Shown in pieces: positions 14,879 through 59,393 of a stretch of 64,000 nt of DNA (its first letter is position 1; the number at the start of each line of letters is the position of its first letter). The notes below the pieces were generated by a model, which ran no database searches, had not been told where the DNA came from, and saw only the letters and a program-made list of their open reading frames with translations. Origin of the DNA: Paenibacillus aceti. Its GTDB lineage: Bacteria > Bacillota > Bacilli > Paenibacillales > Paenibacillaceae. The position numbers and the translations under genes were made by a program. The stretch lies in contig NZ_KZ987724.1 in NCBI RefSeq assembly GCF_003614185.1, positions 3,810,107-3,874,106 on the forward strand, in the 5' to 3' direction.

Positions 14879-17158
14879 CTAGTGCAAGAAGCCCTTTTTG
14901 CGGGCAATGGTGTTCATGGAGCGAATTTGCCGTACCGCACCGCGCTGTGATCGGGTCCATTCCGGGGAAGCGAACCAGACTCGGCCTGCGGGGTCATCCT
15001 TTGATCTGCCGGCGCGCCCGGCCATCTGAACCAGGGAGGCTTCATCGAACAGATCGCTATCTGCATCCAAAATAAAAACATCGCTCTTCGGCACGGTCAC
15101 TCCCCGCTCCAGAATCGTCGTAGTTACCAGCATACGAATTTCGGTGGCTCTGAAATCTAGCACTTTATCGGCACGCAATTCATCCTGTGATGAGGTTCCC
15201 TCGATCCTGATGCCTGAGAATCTTCTTCTGAGTAATTCGGTCAGAGGTTCAATATGCCGGATACGGGAGACGAATATGAAAATTTGTGCAGCTCGCTGAA
15301 TAGACTCGATTAACGCTGTAGCTAAAGCGGAGGGGAGAGAGTGGCGGCGAAGGCAGTTCTCCACGGGATCTATTCTGATCCGGCGCGGCACGGGGAGTGG
15401 ATGGCCGTGGAACCTGGCTGGCACTTTAGCGTGTTCTATTTCGCCTTGGCGCACTTCCCGCTGCATCTGAGCAGGCGGAGTGGCCGACAGGAAAATGAAG
15501 CGGCCTGTGTTTTTGCAGGATTCCTGGGCGGCGAAAGCAAGCATAGGATCATTGTGATACGGAAACGCATCCAGCTCGTCGATGATCACGAGATCAAATG
15601 CGTGATAGAAGCGCATGAGCTGATGCGTTGTCGCCAGGATAAGCCGCGCCTCTTCCCAGCGTTGGGAGCTGCCGCCGTAAAGGACTGCAAGCTTTTGCTC
15701 CGGAAAAGCCTTGCCGATCCGCGGTGCCAGTTCCAACACCACATCCCGGCGCGGCGTAGCTACGAGCACTCTGCCGCCGGTGCAGAGTGTGTAGTCGATG
15801 AGCGGGAAGATCATTTCTGTCTTCCCGGCGCCAGTCACGGCCCAGAGCAGGAAACGGCTCTGGGCTGGGCGGCCTGGTGGAGCAAGGCCGCCGCGAGATG
15901 CACCGGCATGACCGTCGGTCAGCGCCGGTGCACAGGAATTGGCCCGCTGCCGGGGCAGGGCCAATGGAAAGCGAGCGGCATGGGCGATGGACCATGCCGC
16001 TGGGCGCGGACCGCCATGGAGCCCGCCTGGGCCATGGCGGTCGCGCGGGGCTGCTGGCGCGCCCTGCGGCTGCGCCAGAAATCGCAGCGCGGCGGAGGCC
16101 GCATCGCGCTGCGCGGGGCTTAACCCCCACCGGTCCAGCAGGGACTCGGTGGGGGCCCCGCCCGTGCCGCCCGCCGCAGGCGGCACGGCCCTCGCGCTGC
16201 CGCGCAGCAGCAGCGCACAAGACCGGCTGCGCCCCATAGCGAGGCAGGCCTCGCAATAGGCGCAGCCGCTGGACCCGCACGACCCGCAGGGCGTGCGGGA
16301 ATGCACTTCGCTGCCGCAGCGCCGGCAGCGATACCGGGCCCGCGGCCGCGCCAGCGGGCCCCGGCCTCCGCGGGCGGTGGCAGCCGCCACGCCCGCGGTA
16401 ATTAGCACGCGCCCCTGCAGGTGCGCGTGCTGCACGGCGGAGCGCCACACCGGCAAAAGCTCCGGCAGGCGCTCCACCAACAGCTGCTGCAGCTCCGCTT
16501 CCAGCAGCGACCTCCCCTCCAGCGCGGCTGCTATGCGCCGCGCCCCAACCTCCACCGCTTCCTCCCAACGCCCGTCGTCCGCTCGATCTACTACAGCTCC
16601 CATCACCACTCCGCTCGCGGTTATCCAATCATAAGCCTGTCTGCCCCAGGCTCCCTCACCCACAGCTTCTCCTATTCCAAGGCTCATTTTTTCAGCGCCC
16701 CTTTTCCTCCCTCCCCCAAGCTGCCCCAACAAGCTCTCTCCCATCGCAGTGATACCTTGCTGGCTTGTCCACAACAATCCACCCGACTGCAGCTCTAACA
16801 ATCGCTGCTCATAGAGAAGCTCACCCGTTCTGAGCTTACGCTCCTGCTCAAGCTCTCTTTTCAGAGCATCAACAATATACCTCCTCCAATCCCTCATATC
16901 CCAGCGATCCATCTCCAATCTGGACTGGAACCGGTCACGTAAGCTAACTCCCCACCCTAATGGCATAGATGCAGACAACAGAATCATCCGCTCGCTTCGC
17001 TCCAACTGGGGCTTATTTTCAAACACACCCTCTCCCCCTCCATCGACTAGCCACCCCCGTTGCTGCAGACACCATCTGAGATCCGTTCCAACATCAAGAC
17101 TGACCATCAGTTTCCAAAATGCACGCTCCAGCCTAACCACATATACTGCCGCTCTCAT
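14879..17158 (-). CDS. comFA: ComFA-type DNA translocase/helicase
   Basis: 759 aa from ATG 17158, with AAGGAGGGG five bases upstream. N-terminal region of about 270 residues, then a four-cysteine zinc finger (YRCRRCGSEV; CGSCGSSGCAYCEAC), a Q-motif-like LSPAQRDAAS, and an Ala/Gly/Pro-rich stretch. Then the ATPase: Walker A AVTGAGKTE about 300 residues before the end, DELDAFPYH as Walker B, FLSATPP motif III and QMAGRAGR motif VI. Drives single-stranded DNA import during competence. Longer than the roughly 460-aa Bacillus ComFA because of the N-terminal region and the GC-rich spacer (about 15850-16560), whose composition is far above that of its neighbours. Confidence 0.92.
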   Translation of the reverse strand: MRAAVYVVRLERAFWKLMVSLDVGTDLRWCLQQRGWLVDGGGEGVFENKPQLERSERMILLSASMPLGWGVSLRDRFQSRLEMDRWDMRDWRRYIVDALKRELEQERKLRTGELLYEQRLLELQSGGLLWTSQQGITAMGESLLGQLGGGRKRGAEKMSLGIGEAVGEGAWGRQAYDWITASGVVMGAVVDRADDGRWEEAVEVGARRIAAALEGRSLLEAELQQLLVERLPELLPVWRSAVQHAHLQGRVLITAGVAAATARGGRGPLARPRARYRCRRCGSEVHSRTPCGSCGSSGCAYCEACLAMGRSRSCALLLRGSARAVPPAAGGTGGAPTESLLDRWGLSPAQRDAASAALRFLAQPQGAPAAPRDRHGPGGLHGGPRPAAWSIAHAARFPLALPRQRANSCAPALTDGHAGASRGGLAPPGRPAQSRFLLWAVTGAGKTEMIFPLIDYTLCTGGRVLVATPRRDVVLELAPRIGKAFPEQKLAVLYGGSSQRWEEARLILATTHQLMRFYHAFDLVIIDELDAFPYHNDPMLAFAAQESCKNTGRFIFLSATPPAQMQREVRQGEIEHAKVPARFHGHPLPVPRRIRIDPVENCLRRHSLPSALATALIESIQRAAQIFIFVSRIRHIEPLTELLRRRFSGIRIEGTSSQDELRADKVLDFRATEIRMLVTTTILERGVTVPKSDVFILDADSDLFDEASLVQMAGRAGRSKDDPAGRVWFASPEWTRSQRGAVRQIRSMNTIARKKGFLH

Positions 17159-17194
17159 GCTTACCCCTCCTTCAATAATTTCTCCCTCCACCAC

Positions 17195-17640
17195 CTAACC
17201 ACCACGCCTACCCTTGCTTATGTAATGTCACCTCTGCCCCCACATCGGAATGAAATAAATGCTTAAATACACTTATTCCAAGCGGGTCTGCAACAAACCA
17301 ACGATATAAATGCATTTGTACAACTATTTCCCCGATCTCGCCCTCATAACGAGCAAACTGCCACAAATAAATGTATATTTGCACCTATATCGCGAGAGTC
17401 GTCTAGCAAGTCTTAAATAGTTGCACTTAAGCACTTATCCATCCCTCGCCCTCCCTCGGTCACCGCACTCCCTACCCTCCCCCACCTAAACAGCCCTTAA
17501 TTACTCACTTATCCCCACCATTCTCACCCCCGTCCCCCATCCTTGCCCACATCCATCTCCCCCTCACCTCCCTATCTCATCAATCCTTATAAGCGACCCC
17601 AATCCCGGTTCCACCTCCTTCCAAGCAATTTCCACGCAAA
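17195..17640. repeat. Intergenic region with four spaced degenerate repeats (family B, array 1)
   Basis: No gene. Copies at about 17255-17279, 17305-17330, 17366-17391 and 17412-17440 share the form ATAAATGCATTTGTACAACT followed by ATTTCC. Intervals are 50, 61 and 46 bases. The rest, 17450-17640, is strongly pyrimidine-rich on the plus strand with no visible coding signal. Confidence 0.6.
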
Positions 17641-17762: not shown

Positions 17763-18200
17763 CTATACATGGACATACGGTATCTTGTTCGCCCCCTCGG
17801 GCGAACGGAGATCGATGAATAATCGGGTCTCTTCTGCATCAATGGGAGCTTGCGCTGCCAGCATATATCGCTTCTTCTCTTCCTCGCCGACCGCAGTCAG
17901 ACGAGTGAGGTTCAGGTCCATTCCCTCCCGATGCTTCAAACGCTCGACGATCGCTATCGTGTTATCGTCCGATGCTTCGTCGAGTACCGTCACCTTCACT
18001 GAATCACCGCGCCAACGTCCATACCAGTCCAAGGCCCTCAGATACCATTCCATGTGCTGCTCATGATTATGAGTCACCAGTACATAATGCATCCGCTTAC
18101 GAGCCTTCGGCTGCATGCGCCGATATTGTCCGTGTACCAAGTGCACCATCGCCGTCGCCAACCCGTAACTGAACAGAATCCAACCCATATATGGAAACAT
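17763..18200 (-). CDS. Small membrane-anchored protein with GT2-like fold start
   Basis: 145 aa, conserved function unknown. One N-terminal membrane segment (MGWILFSYGLATAMVHLVHG), then YVLVTHNHEQHMEWYLRALD and VTVLDEASDDNTIAIVERLK. The last two resemble the opening beta-alpha-beta and Asp-rich site of GT-A family 2 glycosyltransferases, but the protein ends before a catalytic domain would be complete. Could be a stand-alone sugar-nucleotide-fold protein. Lies downstream of degU with a 290-base gap and is bounded by its own terminator. Confidence 0.65.
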   Translation of the reverse strand: MFPYMGWILFSYGLATAMVHLVHGQYRRMQPKARKRMHYVLVTHNHEQHMEWYLRALDWYGRWRGDSVKVTVLDEASDDNTIAIVERLKHREGMDLNLTRLTAVGEEEKKRYMLAAQAPIDAEETRLFIDLRSPEGANKIPYVHV

Positions 18201-23182: not shown

Positions 23183-23367
23183 TTAATTTGCTACTCTCCC
23201 ATCTTTTATACGATTATCATTCCATCTATTTAATCTCTCAGTAAACCTACTACACTATTAATAGACTACTTTGAACCCAAAAAGTTACGAAAAAGCGCAA
23301 ATTTCTTGGAAAAGGAGGGGATTTGGTGCAAGTATGTACTGAATGACCAGTTGGGGTGGTTTGGGTA

Positions 23368-23551
23368 ACTGCATAATGTACAGCTAATTTAATTGTTACA
23401 AGCTTTACGAGATAATTAGTTGTAAAAAGTACAGTTAAATCTTCTGAGTTGCTTCAAAAACGGTATTCCTCATAGTTTAACTGTATAAAATGCAATTAGT
23501 TAATGTTCTCACCCCAATATGGGAAATTTAGCTGTACAAAATGCATTTAAC
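23368..23551. repeat. Four spaced degenerate repeats (family B, array 2)
   Basis: Copies at 23368-23392 (inverted), 23413-23440, 23474-23502 and 23525-23551. The best is TTTAGCTGTACAAAATGCAT followed by TTAAC. Intervals are 45, 61 and 51 bases. Upstream of the plus-strand nuclease-like gene, in a 608-base gap with no other gene. Confidence 0.65.
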
Positions 23552-23672
23552 ATGACCGCATACTATTTTGTATTACCATCCCTTAGTTCTCTAATAGAAA
23601 CAGCCCATGGAAGCACATATACCCCCCTATGGAAAAAGTTTATCCAACCTGTTAAACTGAGAATATTAACCC

Positions 23673-23678
23673 TATAAT
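23673..23678 (+). promoter_or_regulatory. Candidate -10 box ahead of a leader hairpin
   Basis: TATAAT on the plus strand, about 17 bases upstream of the hairpin at 23695. No convincing -35 was found, so this is a weak call. Confidence 0.35.
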
Positions 23679-23694
23679 AAAGTAGCGACGTAGC

Positions 23695-23732
23695 ACGTCC
23701 CATCCATTTTTGTAATGGTTGGGGCGTTTTTT
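23695..23732 (+). terminator. Rho-independent hairpin upstream of the nuclease-like gene
   Basis: ACGTCCCATCCATT pairs with AATGGTTGGGGCGT (14 positions, one mismatch, one G-U) and is followed by TTTTTT on the plus strand. It stands 60 bases before the start of the only plus-strand gene. There is no plus-strand gene upstream for it to terminate, so it may act as an attenuator or end a short RNA. Confidence 0.75.
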
Positions 23733-23790
23733 ACTTCTCACATAATAGGGTTGGTTGGATAACAATCTGAATTAGAGGAGGAATGCTAGA

Positions 23791-24465
23791 GTGAACTTTG
23801 AAACTGCCCACCATGCCTTTATCAATAAACATCTGGAACTAAGAAGCAGTGAACGGCGAGGTAGACTAGAACGAGGGCACGGTCATGGAGAAAAGCTATT
23901 TCTACAAAAAGTATGGTGGCCTCTATACAGAAACTTCGAATATCTACACCCGGAATATGAAATCATCGATTGGCGTAAAAGACCCTATTTCAGTGATTTT
24001 GCCTATTTACCTGGTTCGCTCAAATTTATCATCGAAATTAAGGGATATGGTCCTCATGTTCGAGATATGGATCGCCAAAAATATTGTAATGAATTGAATC
24101 GCGAAATCTATATCCAAACCTTAGGCTATCGTATCATTTCTTTTGCATATGATGATGTCTCAGAGCAGCCCGAGTTATGCCAATACTTATTACAGACATT
24201 ACTGAATCGCTATCAGGCTCAGAAACAACCTGTACAACGTACAGTTATGGCAGAATCTGAAATTATACGCTACATTCTAAGCTCCCCACACCAATCGGTC
24301 AGCCCAAAGGAAATTTCACTTCATTTTCAAATTAACCATCGCACATCTGTTAAAATGCTAAAATCGCTATGTCACAAAGGCTGGCTTCAGCCCATTCACA
24401 GCGGATCGGGACAACGAATACACCGCTATGCATTAGTCGCAGGCTCTGTCGGATATTTCGCATAA
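23791..24465 (+). CDS. PD-(D/E)XK (Vsr/DUF559-like) protein with C-terminal winged helix
   Basis: 224 aa, GTG start with GAGGAGG nine or so bases upstream. The first 150 residues follow the Vsr/DUF559 plan: an N-terminal helix with Glu (HGHGEKLFLQKVWWPLY), then SDFAYLPGSLKFIIEIKGYG with Asp...Glu-x-Lys, then RDMDRQKYCNELNREIYIQT and GYRIISFAYDDV. The C-terminal 75 residues (ESEIIRYILSS; VSPKEISLHFQINHRTSVKM) read as a winged helix. Could be a DNA nuclease or a DNA-binding regulator that kept a nuclease fold. The only clear plus-strand gene here and flanked on both sides by repeat arrays. Confidence 0.75.
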   Translation: MNFETAHHAFINKHLELRSSERRGRLERGHGHGEKLFLQKVWWPLYRNFEYLHPEYEIIDWRKRPYFSDFAYLPGSLKFIIEIKGYGPHVRDMDRQKYCNELNREIYIQTLGYRIISFAYDDVSEQPELCQYLLQTLLNRYQAQKQPVQRTVMAESEIIRYILSSPHQSVSPKEISLHFQINHRTSVKMLKSLCHKGWLQPIHSGSGQRIHRYALVAGSVGYFA

Positions 24466-24506
24466 AAATATCATTCATGGAGCCCTTCTCCTACATTACT
24501 TAAAAA

Positions 24507-24542
24507 AATCAACCTCCTTCGCATAAGCATAGGAGGTTGATT
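24507..24542 (-). terminator. Terminator for minus-strand transcription from the SLH gene
   Basis: AATCAACCTCCT and AGGAGGTTGATT pair perfectly (12 bp, 12-base loop), with TTTTTT following on the minus strand. On the plus strand the same stem lies 42 bases past the nuclease-like gene and may also slow that transcript. Confidence 0.8.
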
Positions 24543-24569
24543 CTAGTTACACATAACTCATACCTATTC

Positions 24570-24755
24570 AATTGCACAAAGTACAGCTATAAAAGTAACA
24601 ATCGGTTCCAACATGATTTTAATTGCAAAACCTGCACTTAAAATAATCCGTTTCCTCAATTTTACTGGAATGGACTATTCCAAGTGTACTAAATGCAGTT
24701 GCAGGGGGAGCCTTCTTGTAAATTAAGAAATTAAATGTAGCTTTTGCAATTATCC
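24570..24755. repeat. Four spaced degenerate repeats (family B, array 3)
   Basis: Copies at about 24570-24593, 24618-24646, 24682-24702 and 24731-24755, for example ATTGCACAAAGTACAGCTAT and AAGTGTACTAAATGCAGTTG. Intervals are 48, 64 and 49 bases. Between the ends of the nuclease-like gene and the SLH gene; the 334-base gap holds nothing else but the terminator at 24507. Confidence 0.6.
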
Positions 24756-24799
24756 ATATCACCCTGCCACAAAGGACTAAAGCTACCTCGTAGCTTCAT

Positions 24800-27700
24800 T
24801 CAACCATTCAACTTATCCAGCACCCGCTTCAGCATAATTGCAGCCTGGGCGCGGGTAGCGTTGCCTTGCGGCTTGAAGGTGGTCTGGGTCATCCCTTGGA
24901 TGATGCCCTCCTGGACGGCCTTGGCGACCGTCTGCTTGTTCTGGATTTTCGCCGCATCCTTGAACTTGACCAAGGCCTGCGTTCCAGAACCGGAGACTTC
25001 ATACCCGGCATACTCCATAGCCCGCACCATCATCAGCGCCATTTGCTCACGGGTAATATTGTTGTTCGGCTTGAAGGTCCCATCGGCGTGTCCGTTAATA
25101 ATCCCTGCCTTAGCCGCAGCCCCGATATAAGCTCCTGTCGCCGAGCCTGCAACTACATCCGGGAAGCGGCGCGCATTGGCCTCATCTCCAGCCAAGCCAA
25201 GCCCCTTGGCGATGAACACCGCAAACTCCGCACGAGTGATATTCTGATTGGGTTCGAATTTCGTGCTGTTATTCACCCGCGGTTCAACGATTAACTTGCT
25301 AGCAAGCTCGGAGATTTCATCCTTCGCCCAATGCTTTGTAATATCCTCAAAATAACCATATCCCACCGCAGGTCCAATCACCGTATTGCCATTCACCTTG
25401 CCCGAGAAGACAATTCCCGCTCCACGGCTACTAGCCTTAGATGGCGAATAAGCTACCACACCCGAATTGAGATCATACTTCATTAGAGAAGCTGTGCTTA
25501 CCGGTACCTGCTTCGAGGTATACATATATATTTTCCCGGTATGAGCCACTTCAGCCGAACTTGAGTTATTAGCTACATTAGCAGTGATATACACTTCCAC
25601 TGGATCTCCCAAAGCGCTGATCGTAACCGCTCCGCTAGAAGTGAGTGACGGAAGCTGCACCTTAGGCACGGACTCCAGCCGAATAGCTAGGCTGACGGAA
25701 GCGAATGAGTTCGTATTGACCAAACGCGAAATCTCCGTAAAAGGAATCTTCTCTACCGGAAGCTCGTATAGAACATCTCCATACTTGATTGCAAATGAAG
25801 CCGTCTTGCCGCTGCTATATAAATCCATCAACGGATTCAATGGCACAACGACATGCGCAGCCTTCTCGGTGGCTGGCACCTCGAATACTAATAATTTCTG
25901 AGCACCATTGGTATTGCCCACAAAGCTGAGTGAATCTTTCAACTTCACGCTATCCAAGTTATATTTCGTAATCGTCTGCCCATACCGCGACCGGTCTACC
26001 GAAGTCTGAGCCGAATTTAGGGCCATGGCATAGCCAGAGATACCAAAATCAATACCTGACCAGGAAGTCACATAAGAAGGCTGTCCAACGCTGCCTGGCG
26101 TAGTTGTAGAACCCGAATCCGTCAAGTTCGTAACCGGCATACTGCTATAGCCTTTCATTACATTCCCTGCGTAATCATACAACATCGTACCGCTCGACAT
26201 ATAAGATACAAGTACGGCCTGTCCGGCTCGCACTGGATTCACGAGCTTCAGGGTCACAGTATCTCCGCTTACGCTTGCCGATTGCAGGCTCTGGCTCATA
26301 TTATCCACTGATACAGAGAACTGATTGGTCGGAAAGGCATTAACTGATCTTAAGGATGTATTGTAAGTGATCGTAATCGTGTCACCACGAACTATGGCAG
26401 AACGTATGCCTTCGATCACTACATTATACTGTACGGGTTCCAAATTGAGGTATCCCGCCAGATTGCCATTCAAGTCAGCAATACCGCCAATTCCCGACAC
26501 ATAGGACACAGTCACATTTTGCCCCTGATTAAAAGATGACGCTAGCGTCAGGATCACCTGATTAGACATAATCTCCACATTATTTACATAAACGGGCGAG
26601 TTGTTAACTAGTACAGAGAACTGACTTTTCATCGGGATATTCGTTGTTTTCAGAGCTTCATTATACGACAGAATAATTTTATTGCCTGAGCCTTCTGCAC
26701 CTGTAAATTCCGGTGGCTTCGTATCATACGTATTTCGTACATAATAATCCTCGAAGGCAGGAATATTCTGTCCCCGATAATCCTGAAGCGGATAAGAACC
26801 CGGGTAATAAGATACCTTTACATTATCTCCATTGGATACGGAACTTGTTAAGTACAGCGTAACGGAAGAGCCACTCTGGTAAATGCGATCGATCCCTCTG
26901 GAATAACCGTCTACTACCACACGAAACTGCTCGTAAGCATAGGTTGAGACACTCTTTAGGGTATCGCTAAAATATAGGGTCAGTACACTGCCGGATACAC
27001 TGCCTTCCCTCGGCTTCGGCAACACAGAATCAATCCCATTTATTACTTCTTTACCGGAAAAAGACCCTGCCACATTGCCGGACAGATCCTTAATCGGCCT
27101 GACTCCATTAGAGGTATATCCTACCCGTACATTTTGCCCCACAGCTACCCCGGTCTCCAAGGTGACGTACACACTTTCGCCAGAGATATAGGCATTACTA
27201 ATACGACGGGTTTCGCCGTTCACAGTTGCTGTGAAGCTACTGGTCAGAAGATTAATCGATGAATCCAATGTCTTATTGTACTGCAGTCGAATCATTGAGT
27301 TCGTGTACATCGTTGCGCTTTGCAGTACCGGAGCAGTCTTATCTCTAGCCCCTGTCTGGAAGGTCCAGCTCGATGATCCATTTACTCCATTGAAAACTGC
27401 GCCTGTATCAGCATCAGCAATGGCCCCTGAGGCAATATCGATATAGTAAGTTGCACCTTCTCTTAAATTATCGTTTGGAGTAATATACAACTTATTGCTT
27501 GAAGCTGTTATTTTTGCTGCTATCGAAGTATTCGAGCCTTGCATTTTTAAAGTTACCTTCGACGCATCCAGCAATGTGATATTACGGTTAAATGTTGCAG
27601 TCATACTGCTTGAAACCGACACATTCGTGCTGCGATCACTAGGATATAAGTTACTTATCGATAGAGTACCGGAGCCAGCCGTTCCCGTCGTAAAAGACCA

Positions 27701-43340: not shown

Positions 43341-43480
43341 TAGAAAGCCTGCAAATATGCAGGAATTTCACCAACATCGCGATTCAAAATGATAAATTCC
43401 TGCGATAATGCAGGTATTCTCTCCACATCTGCTCGATTTTAGAGGAAAGGGCTAAAAAGCCTGCATTTATGCAGTTTTGG
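43341..43480. repeat. Three spaced hairpin repeats (family C, array 1)
   Basis: Copies at 43341-43369, 43391-43421 and 43451-43480; consensus AAAGCCTGCA, four bases, TGCAGGAATTT. CCTGCA and TGCAGG can form a small hairpin. Intervals are 50 and 60 bases. The 530-base gap has no gene. Confidence 0.65.
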
Positions 43481-43613
43481 AGTTCGCAGGGGAGGGATGG
43501 GGAGATACTAAGCAACGCTAAATAAGGTACCTAATAATGATTAGGCCATCTATACCGCCACACTTCAATGAAGAACTGAATAGAATAGATGTAACAAGGT
43601 CTTACCAGCACAA

Positions 43614-59208: not shown

Positions 59209-59393
59209 CTAAGGAAACTACAGAACGCTATTCCTACGAAAATAGGCCCTCTCGAAATCTAACGAAACTCCAGATCGTTATTGGAAACAAATGCAGTCCT
59301 TAGAGGATGAATTTAGCCGAATAGCGATATCCCGTTTCGTTGCAATTTCCAAAGGGCCTTTCGGGTGCAAATAGCGATACCATGTTTCGTTAG
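59209..59393. repeat. Four spaced repeats in a two-plus-two inverted layout (family D)
   Basis: Copies at 59209-59235, 59259-59284 (forward, AACGAAACTCCAGATCGTTA) and 59318-59343, 59368-59393 (inverted, AATAGCGATACCATGTTTCG). Intervals 50, 59 and 50 bases. The 467-base gap holds only this and a terminator. Confidence 0.65.

Follow-up and report, generated by a model that had tools for sequence, protein, structure and literature searches.

The putative nuclease gene and the pair of four-site repeat arrays that flank it in Paenibacillus aceti are, with fair probability, best explained as one unit of a repeat system in which the array is a non-autonomous element copied by the nuclease. The window referred to below is the whole 64-kb stretch of DNA that was analysed, and the genome to which it belongs (5.6 Mb) is called G000. 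Taken together, the gene and its arrays resemble a type of genomic repeat system in Paenibacillus-type bacteria that has not been described before; no description of the element was found in the open-access literature searched, including PMC1913061 and PMC12306157. Comparison of genomes supports the geometry of the arrays, their adjacency to the gene, the pairing of paralogues with array families and a homology of ~190 bp in several families, as well as presence or absence between species and a replication-locked orientation in one family. These data are best read as a counterpart of REP/RAYT that uses an unrelated nuclease, a protein that would bind, cut and mobilise its arrays.

A plus-strand gene for a protein with a Vsr/DUF559-like fold and a winged helix had been proposed in the initial annotation, and both the reading frame (224 aa) and a structure model of the protein (P0001) bear this out. 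Its Pfam scores are below cut-off (DUF559, PF04480, 15.8 bits with 20.6 needed; MarR_2, 18.3 bits), but among 27 homologues 22 have a DUF559 match at E ≤ 0.1. The AlphaFold2 model has a mean pLDDT of 84.5. Foldseek ranks 6p4o first, an XPB-Bax1 helicase-nuclease entry whose E value (7e-4) alone falls below 0.001, followed by the endonuclease-like 3hrl (E 1.3e-3), most of whose 94-residue chain is covered; many MarR-type winged helices also match. The adjacent strands predicted at residues 65-72 (containing D69) and 79-84 (containing E82 and K84) have the layout of a PD-(D/E)XK/Vsr-like core. Residues D69, E82, G85 and H89 are invariant across the 27 homologues, and K84 of the E-x-K motif is not universal, being H in the paralogue L003 and D, H or Q in four paralogues of genome G015. 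According to the model, then, P0001 is a DUF559/Vsr-like fold joined to a MarR-like winged helix, with putative nuclease activity. It resembles the DUF559/Vsr-like nucleases (PF04480; PDB 3hrl) in its N-terminal fold and active-site layout, but differs from them in its additional winged helix, its association with arrays and its scores below the Pfam cut-off. TnsA is likewise a PD-(D/E)XK plus winged-helix protein; there is no TnsA model among the 25 of 28 Pfam families listed for the 27 homologues. A defence or phage protein was considered and set aside, as the matches are weak and point to no known system: PADLOC SoFic is matched by 5 of the 27 homologues (best E 7.7e-5; residues 94-210 of P0001) and PHROG 503 by 10 of them (best E 7.5e-4; residues 149-203). 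The gene has no match in a phage collection and one in a plasmid collection, a 2.7-Mb Paenibacillus record.

The four-copy arrays that had been noted on both sides of the gene are indeed present, and their sites could be located individually (Table 1). Arrays 2 and 3 are copies of a single element of ~190 bp with four 21-bp sites, each a quasi-palindrome of the form TAnnTGyA-N5-TrCAnnTA (type B). The intervals had been put at 45-64 bases; instead, the start-to-start spacing is fixed at 51-61-51 in both arrays, and in both the best-scoring strand is minus for sites 1-2 and plus for sites 3-4. Twelve family-B copies had also been counted, which holds for arrays 2 and 3 but not for the third array (array 1), which is of type A, with 20-bp sites and an N4 centre, related to type B but distinct from it. 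A motif-free scanner, which scores the mutual resemblance of four 20-mers at 0/51/112/163 (±1) with no motif supplied, found four arrays in the window at the real spacing and no peaks at four control spacings; with the pattern counts given below, this excludes a chance resemblance. The fourth of these represents another site family, which recurs in G000 at L241 1284 and L243 1393, and for which no cognate gene was identified in that genome. Scanning positions 23200-24900 for terminators gave three matches with 1.2 expected; one of these (24798-24778, minus strand) falls in the gap separating array 3 from a minus-strand gene that ends at 24800, at a distance of ~22 bp from the array. Elsewhere in the window, positions 43349-43483 give a weak partial match to type A (23.3 bits), perhaps a decayed array.

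Table 1. Positions of the gene, the arrays and the type-B sites within the window
Feature	Position	Strand	Description
Putative nuclease gene (protein P0001, 224 aa)	23791..24465	+	DUF559/Vsr-like PD-(D/E)XK fold + MarR-like winged helix; putative cognate protein of type-B arrays
Array 2	23362..23555	-	Type B, four sites 51-61-51
Array 3	24564..24756	-	Type B, four sites 51-61-51
Array 1	17253..17441	+	Type A, 20-bp sites; between ORFs 14879-17194 and 17763-18200
Fourth array	about 59210..59393	.	Another site family (TAACGAAAC...); motif-free scan
Array 2 site 1	23366..23386	-	
Array 2 site 2	23417..23437	-	
Array 2 site 3	23478..23498	+	
Array 2 site 4	23529..23549	+	
Array 3 site 1	24569..24589	-	
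Array 3 site 2	24620..24640	-	
Array 3 site 3	24681..24701	+	
Array 3 site 4	24732..24752	+	

Both types are dispersed through G000. A one-site pattern has 48 matches in this genome as against 0 with a reversed control; most loci read from this pattern have the full four-site layout and a few have one to three sites. A sequence model of type B (R1), built from 19 copies that match it by construction, finds at least 40 distinct strong places, a single tandem cluster accounting for six, and a model of type A (R2) finds at least 69 distinct places at 65 bits or more; these counts are lower bounds because 150 of more than 1400 candidates were scored in each of the R1 and R2 searches. At least 23 of the 40 type-B places adjoin an A element, sometimes a partial one, and 14 of the 23 listed B-A pairs have the order and orientation of a B-gene-A unit. 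It was considered that B(+)A(-) pairs might be deletion derivatives of such a unit (as found at L130); no junction or target duplication supports this, and it stays an idea. No gene for type A was found in G000. Five further arrays of this genome, one in each of the loci L239-L243 (picked from weak matches to the type-A model), match the array beside the paralogue L002 at 17.8 or more of 20. A near-identical unit made up of a peptidase-like gene end, one A array and two B arrays occurs three times in the part of L067 (G000:C1:2541000-2560000) from 6.9 to 15 kb, near a masked (N) stretch and a CRISPR-like repeat.

Spacers are common to the copies of one type, A or B, and these are therefore copies of one element rather than independently evolved sites. 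This sharing also bears on whether the arrays act as RNA, that is as terminators, small RNAs or guide arrays, which we find hardly credible. The type A consensus does pair somewhat (-12 kcal/mol), and one family (GGACAC, see below) has a terminator-like right end, but the type B consensus reaches only -1.9 kcal/mol, the covariation terms are -0.19 and -0.12, and the window has no Rfam match at gathering score. Spacers that are common to copies are, moreover, not unique guides, and CRISPR-like or guide arrays were rejected for the same reason, the spacers being homologous between copies instead of unique.

The idea had been raised that the protein recognises or cuts the arrays, which would be undermined if arrays were equally common in genomes without the gene or if homologues in other places had no arrays nearby; neither turned out to be so. 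Among 41 genomes of the GTDB genus, 32 have the gene and 28 have arrays found with the type-B model; R1 arrays are present in 28 of the 32 gene-bearing and 0 of the 9 gene-less genomes (one-sided Fisher p about 2e-6, ancestry uncorrected and the R1 model biased to B-like arrays). All 28 array-bearing genomes thus have the gene, four have the gene without R1 arrays, and nine have neither. The four exceptions are G007, G018, G024 and G034, and the gene loci of the first three were scanned: those of G007 (L131) and G018 (L143) have arrays of other families, and the flanks of that of G024 (L136) have no array above threshold in the motif-free scan. That homologues elsewhere adjoin arrays was confirmed at individual loci. 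When 620-bp flanks were scanned without a motif at a threshold of 80, arrays were found at 28 of 32 genus loci (three of the 28 belong to G000 itself) and on 38 of 64 flanks, with 1 of 256 scans of the same flanks passing at control spacings; no array reached threshold at the other four loci, L121, L132, L136 and L140. A second set consisted of the best 80 of at least 571 named loci, from Paenibacillus, Cohnella, Gordonibacillus, Fontibacillus and a few other records. At a threshold of 77, arrays are present at 59 of these 80 loci and on 67 of 157 flanks, as compared with 8 of 628 controls; at 21 loci no array reaches this threshold. The paralogues L002 and L003 have no type-B arrays, so that the link between gene and array at one stage seemed possibly incidental; this idea was dropped when the motif-free scan showed that both have arrays of their own. 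A density comparison in 20-kb stretches at fixed coordinates (200 kb per group) gave one array peak in gene-less and two in gene-bearing genomes.

The protein family extends beyond the genus: of 398 genomes sampled from the class, 46 have a member at E ≤ 1e-15, and 20 of 145 genera are represented. Twenty loci outside the genus were scanned (two from the same family, one from the same order and 17 from other families within the class); the 51/61/51 threshold is reached by 6 of their 39 flanks and by 3 of 156 controls. Four of the outside loci (L372, L375, L378 and L361) have repeat sets in their flanks at spacings of 53/53, 62/61, 52/53 and 41/48, respectively; these come from a free-spacing search without control and are perhaps lineage-specific geometries.

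Is each variant of the gene paired with its own variant of the array? Very probably it is, judging from paralogues within single genomes. G000 has two paralogues of P0001, with 53% and 27% identity. The array beside L002 has the site CCTGCAAAAATGCAGG, and that beside L003 has the site TAACGGTCATTAATGTCCGTTA, with about eight sites at an alternating spacing of ~50/61 (by eye). Of the seven gene matches in G015, the six that were examined are flanked by six different array families (B, CCAATAG, GGCGTTA, AAGTGC, GGACAC and CGGTTG). Over 14 loci, the scanner found 14 peaks with the true spacing and a total of 8 when four control spacings were tried; the array at L319 scores only 77, with one control peak, and that at L321 scores 88, with two. 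In ten 20-kb stretches of G015 chosen around known B arrays there are 23 array peaks, 11 of type B (one being the L119 gene's own array) and 12 others; each of the 23 has its best match among the six gene arrays of G015, ahead of all 19 foreign gene arrays. Blastn matches to the gene-flank arrays span the array for B, CCAATAG and GGCGTTA, cover 142 bp for AAGTGC and only 60 bp for GGACAC, and are absent at 1e-4 for CGGTTG.

The winged helix and the sites vary together. Across 47 named loci, site similarity rises with winged-helix identity (Spearman 0.56), and the partial correlation given nuclease-domain identity is 0.45 (0 of 999 permutations). The nuclease domain still correlates with the sites when the winged helix is given (partial correlation 0.29, same loci), and part of the signal is therefore shared descent. 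From this comparison we infer that the protein recognises the sites of its array. The same data weigh against the possibility that another transposase (for example Y1/RAYT) is responsible for moving the arrays, with the nuclease gene as a passenger, since neither the pairing of genes with arrays nor the covariation of winged helix and sites would be explained. G000 does have 14 copies of a 157-aa Y1 transposase, of equal score, but G012 has no Y1 match and yet has 59 array matches (both strands counted). Y1/RAYT was rejected as the mover of the arrays on this last ground, and a passenger role for the nuclease gene is very improbable.

We propose instead that the ~190-bp array is a non-autonomous element that is copied to many places, and that the neighbouring gene encodes its cognate protein. 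The winged helix would bind one family of palindromic sites, the protein probably acting as dimers, and the near-integral helical spacing would align the four sites along approximately the same face of the double helix, allowing a multi-dimer complex to form. The Vsr/PD-(D/E)XK domain would then nick or cut DNA, leading to an array copy elsewhere; for at least one family copying would take place beside intrinsic terminators, with replication determining the orientation of the copy. Separate array families would go back to paralogues whose winged helices had changed. Mobilisation of the arrays by the nuclease seems probable on these comparative grounds. We lean slightly towards the wider statement that winged-helix Vsr-like nucleases in Bacilli form an undescribed class that copies its own four-site arrays in a replication-coupled manner, with many such pairs per genome.

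Evidence for spread comes from the ends of the copies and from related genomes. Blastn alignments between copies within the B family, and likewise within the CCAATAG family, extend over 190-210 bp and stop near the array ends. One A-B pair of G000 is missing in the relatives G031 and G011, and a second is missing in G031 and G032, with a single A-like array at that place in G011 (both judged from gap length and by eye). Where G000 has the B array L083 5446-5635, G031 and G011 have ~2.3 kb of other sequence. Such presence or absence between genomes, with the defined ends seen in the B and CCAATAG families, is typical of MITEs. An unlikely alternative is that the protein is a host regulator or chromosome organiser that binds arrays to bridge DNA or control nearby genes, the nuclease domain being structural or rarely used and the arrays selected as platforms. 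This would fit the fixed spacing with less conserved spacers, the roughly eight sites beside L003, the several conserved paralogues per genome and the near absence of the gene from the phage and plasmid collections. It accounts for the geometry of the arrays but not for their spread: homology between members of one family continues through the spacers, A-B pairs are absent from relatives, and different families occupy the same intergenic spot across species (by eye). The invariance of the catalytic-type residues D69, E82 and H89 also argues against it.

REP/RAYT is the reference case for a domesticated nuclease with dispersed palindromic repeats. As described in two papers, REPtrons comprise a chromosomal nuclease gene bordered by palindromic repeats with cognate non-autonomous copies genome-wide, several families being possible (PMC8049555, PMC8266576). 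Here too the gene is bordered by its repeat and the repeat is dispersed genome-wide. The protein is different, RAYT being a HuH Y1 transposase and P0001 a PD-(D/E)XK/Vsr-like fold with a winged helix, as is the repeat, a REP being a short hairpin or hairpin pair and the array having four double-strand-type sites at 51-61-51 bp (~190 bp). REPtron substrates are single-strand hairpins tagged with GTAG/CGTC, unlike the site geometry described here, and RAYT genes are mostly single-copy whereas genomes of this genus have up to 8 copies of the gene. There is no Y1 model among all six families for P0001 or among 25 of the 28 Pfam families for the 27 homologues; taken with the arrays of G012, this means that the system does not have the enzyme that defines a REPtron.

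As regards MITEs, of which PMC3733652 names bcr1, RUP and NEMIS, the arrays resemble them in being short, non-coding, multi-copy and missing at matching places in relatives. They differ in that neither the usual transposon terminal inverted repeats nor target-site duplication is established for them, and in having an internal four-site geometry and a cognate nuclease gene in place of an IS parent. If our reading is correct, the system would stand beside REP/RAYT as a second solution, one that employs an unrelated nuclease and a rigid 51-61-51 multi-site DNA architecture, and this lifestyle would have originated on more than one occasion. It would also provide sets of protein-DNA pairs inside one genome (six were examined in one species), explain one class of the repeats found between genes in Paenibacillus-type genomes, and make it testable how a Vsr-like fold could drive replication-linked copying of DNA.

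The GGACAC family, found in G012, G013 and G015, is a unit of ~330 bp with dozens of copies that are 83-93% identical. Among 20 aligned copies, about 17 start right after a T-run, usually that of a native terminator (by eye, without control), and 17 end in a terminator-like hairpin with a T-run, so that most copies have T-runs on both sides. One G015 copy begins exactly after a terminator that is present without the element in G013; only this left junction is clean because G013 has about 1.8 kb of other, array-free sequence to the right. No convincing target-site duplication was seen by eye at the array copies inspected, and none was seen for A/B pairs. In homing-type spread, the nuclease would cut a chromosomal site and arrays would be copied in by double-strand-break repair rather than by transposition. 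A DUF559/Vsr-like fold, copies adjoining terminator T-runs and different families at the same spot would all be in keeping with such a route. It would, however, need homologous flanks, and the aligned GGACAC copies, one orthologous pair apart, have unrelated flanks with no shared target beyond the T-run, which makes homing improbable.

Copies of the GGACAC family are also oriented with respect to replication, as the proposed nuclease-driven copying supposes for this family. In G015, 39 of 39 copies among the matches listed are oriented alike relative to replication: 20 plus-strand copies lie at 6.41-7.57 and 0-1.72 Mb and 19 minus-strand copies at 1.91-4.39 Mb. This amounts to two switches round the circle, an arrangement reached in 0 of 100000 shuffles. 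GC skew in ten stretches flips in step with the orientation, in one of them weakly (0.019). Inspection by eye showed no such locking for type B in G015 or for either type, A or B, in G000. In IS200/IS605 and Tn7-TnsE, too, orientation is tied to replication; the likeness extends to one array family here, and the protein is different. The gene beside this most amplified, replication-oriented family (L321, G015:C1:878900-881300, positions 962-1641) is split over two overlapping frames. At L308, L315, L313 and other compared loci, one intergenic spot holds different array families, or none, depending on the species (by eye), and some spots therefore look like insertion hot spots. Another dispersed repeat, of ~160 bp (L273 1-163, G015:C1:2310000), has more than 30 copies among the matches listed in G012.
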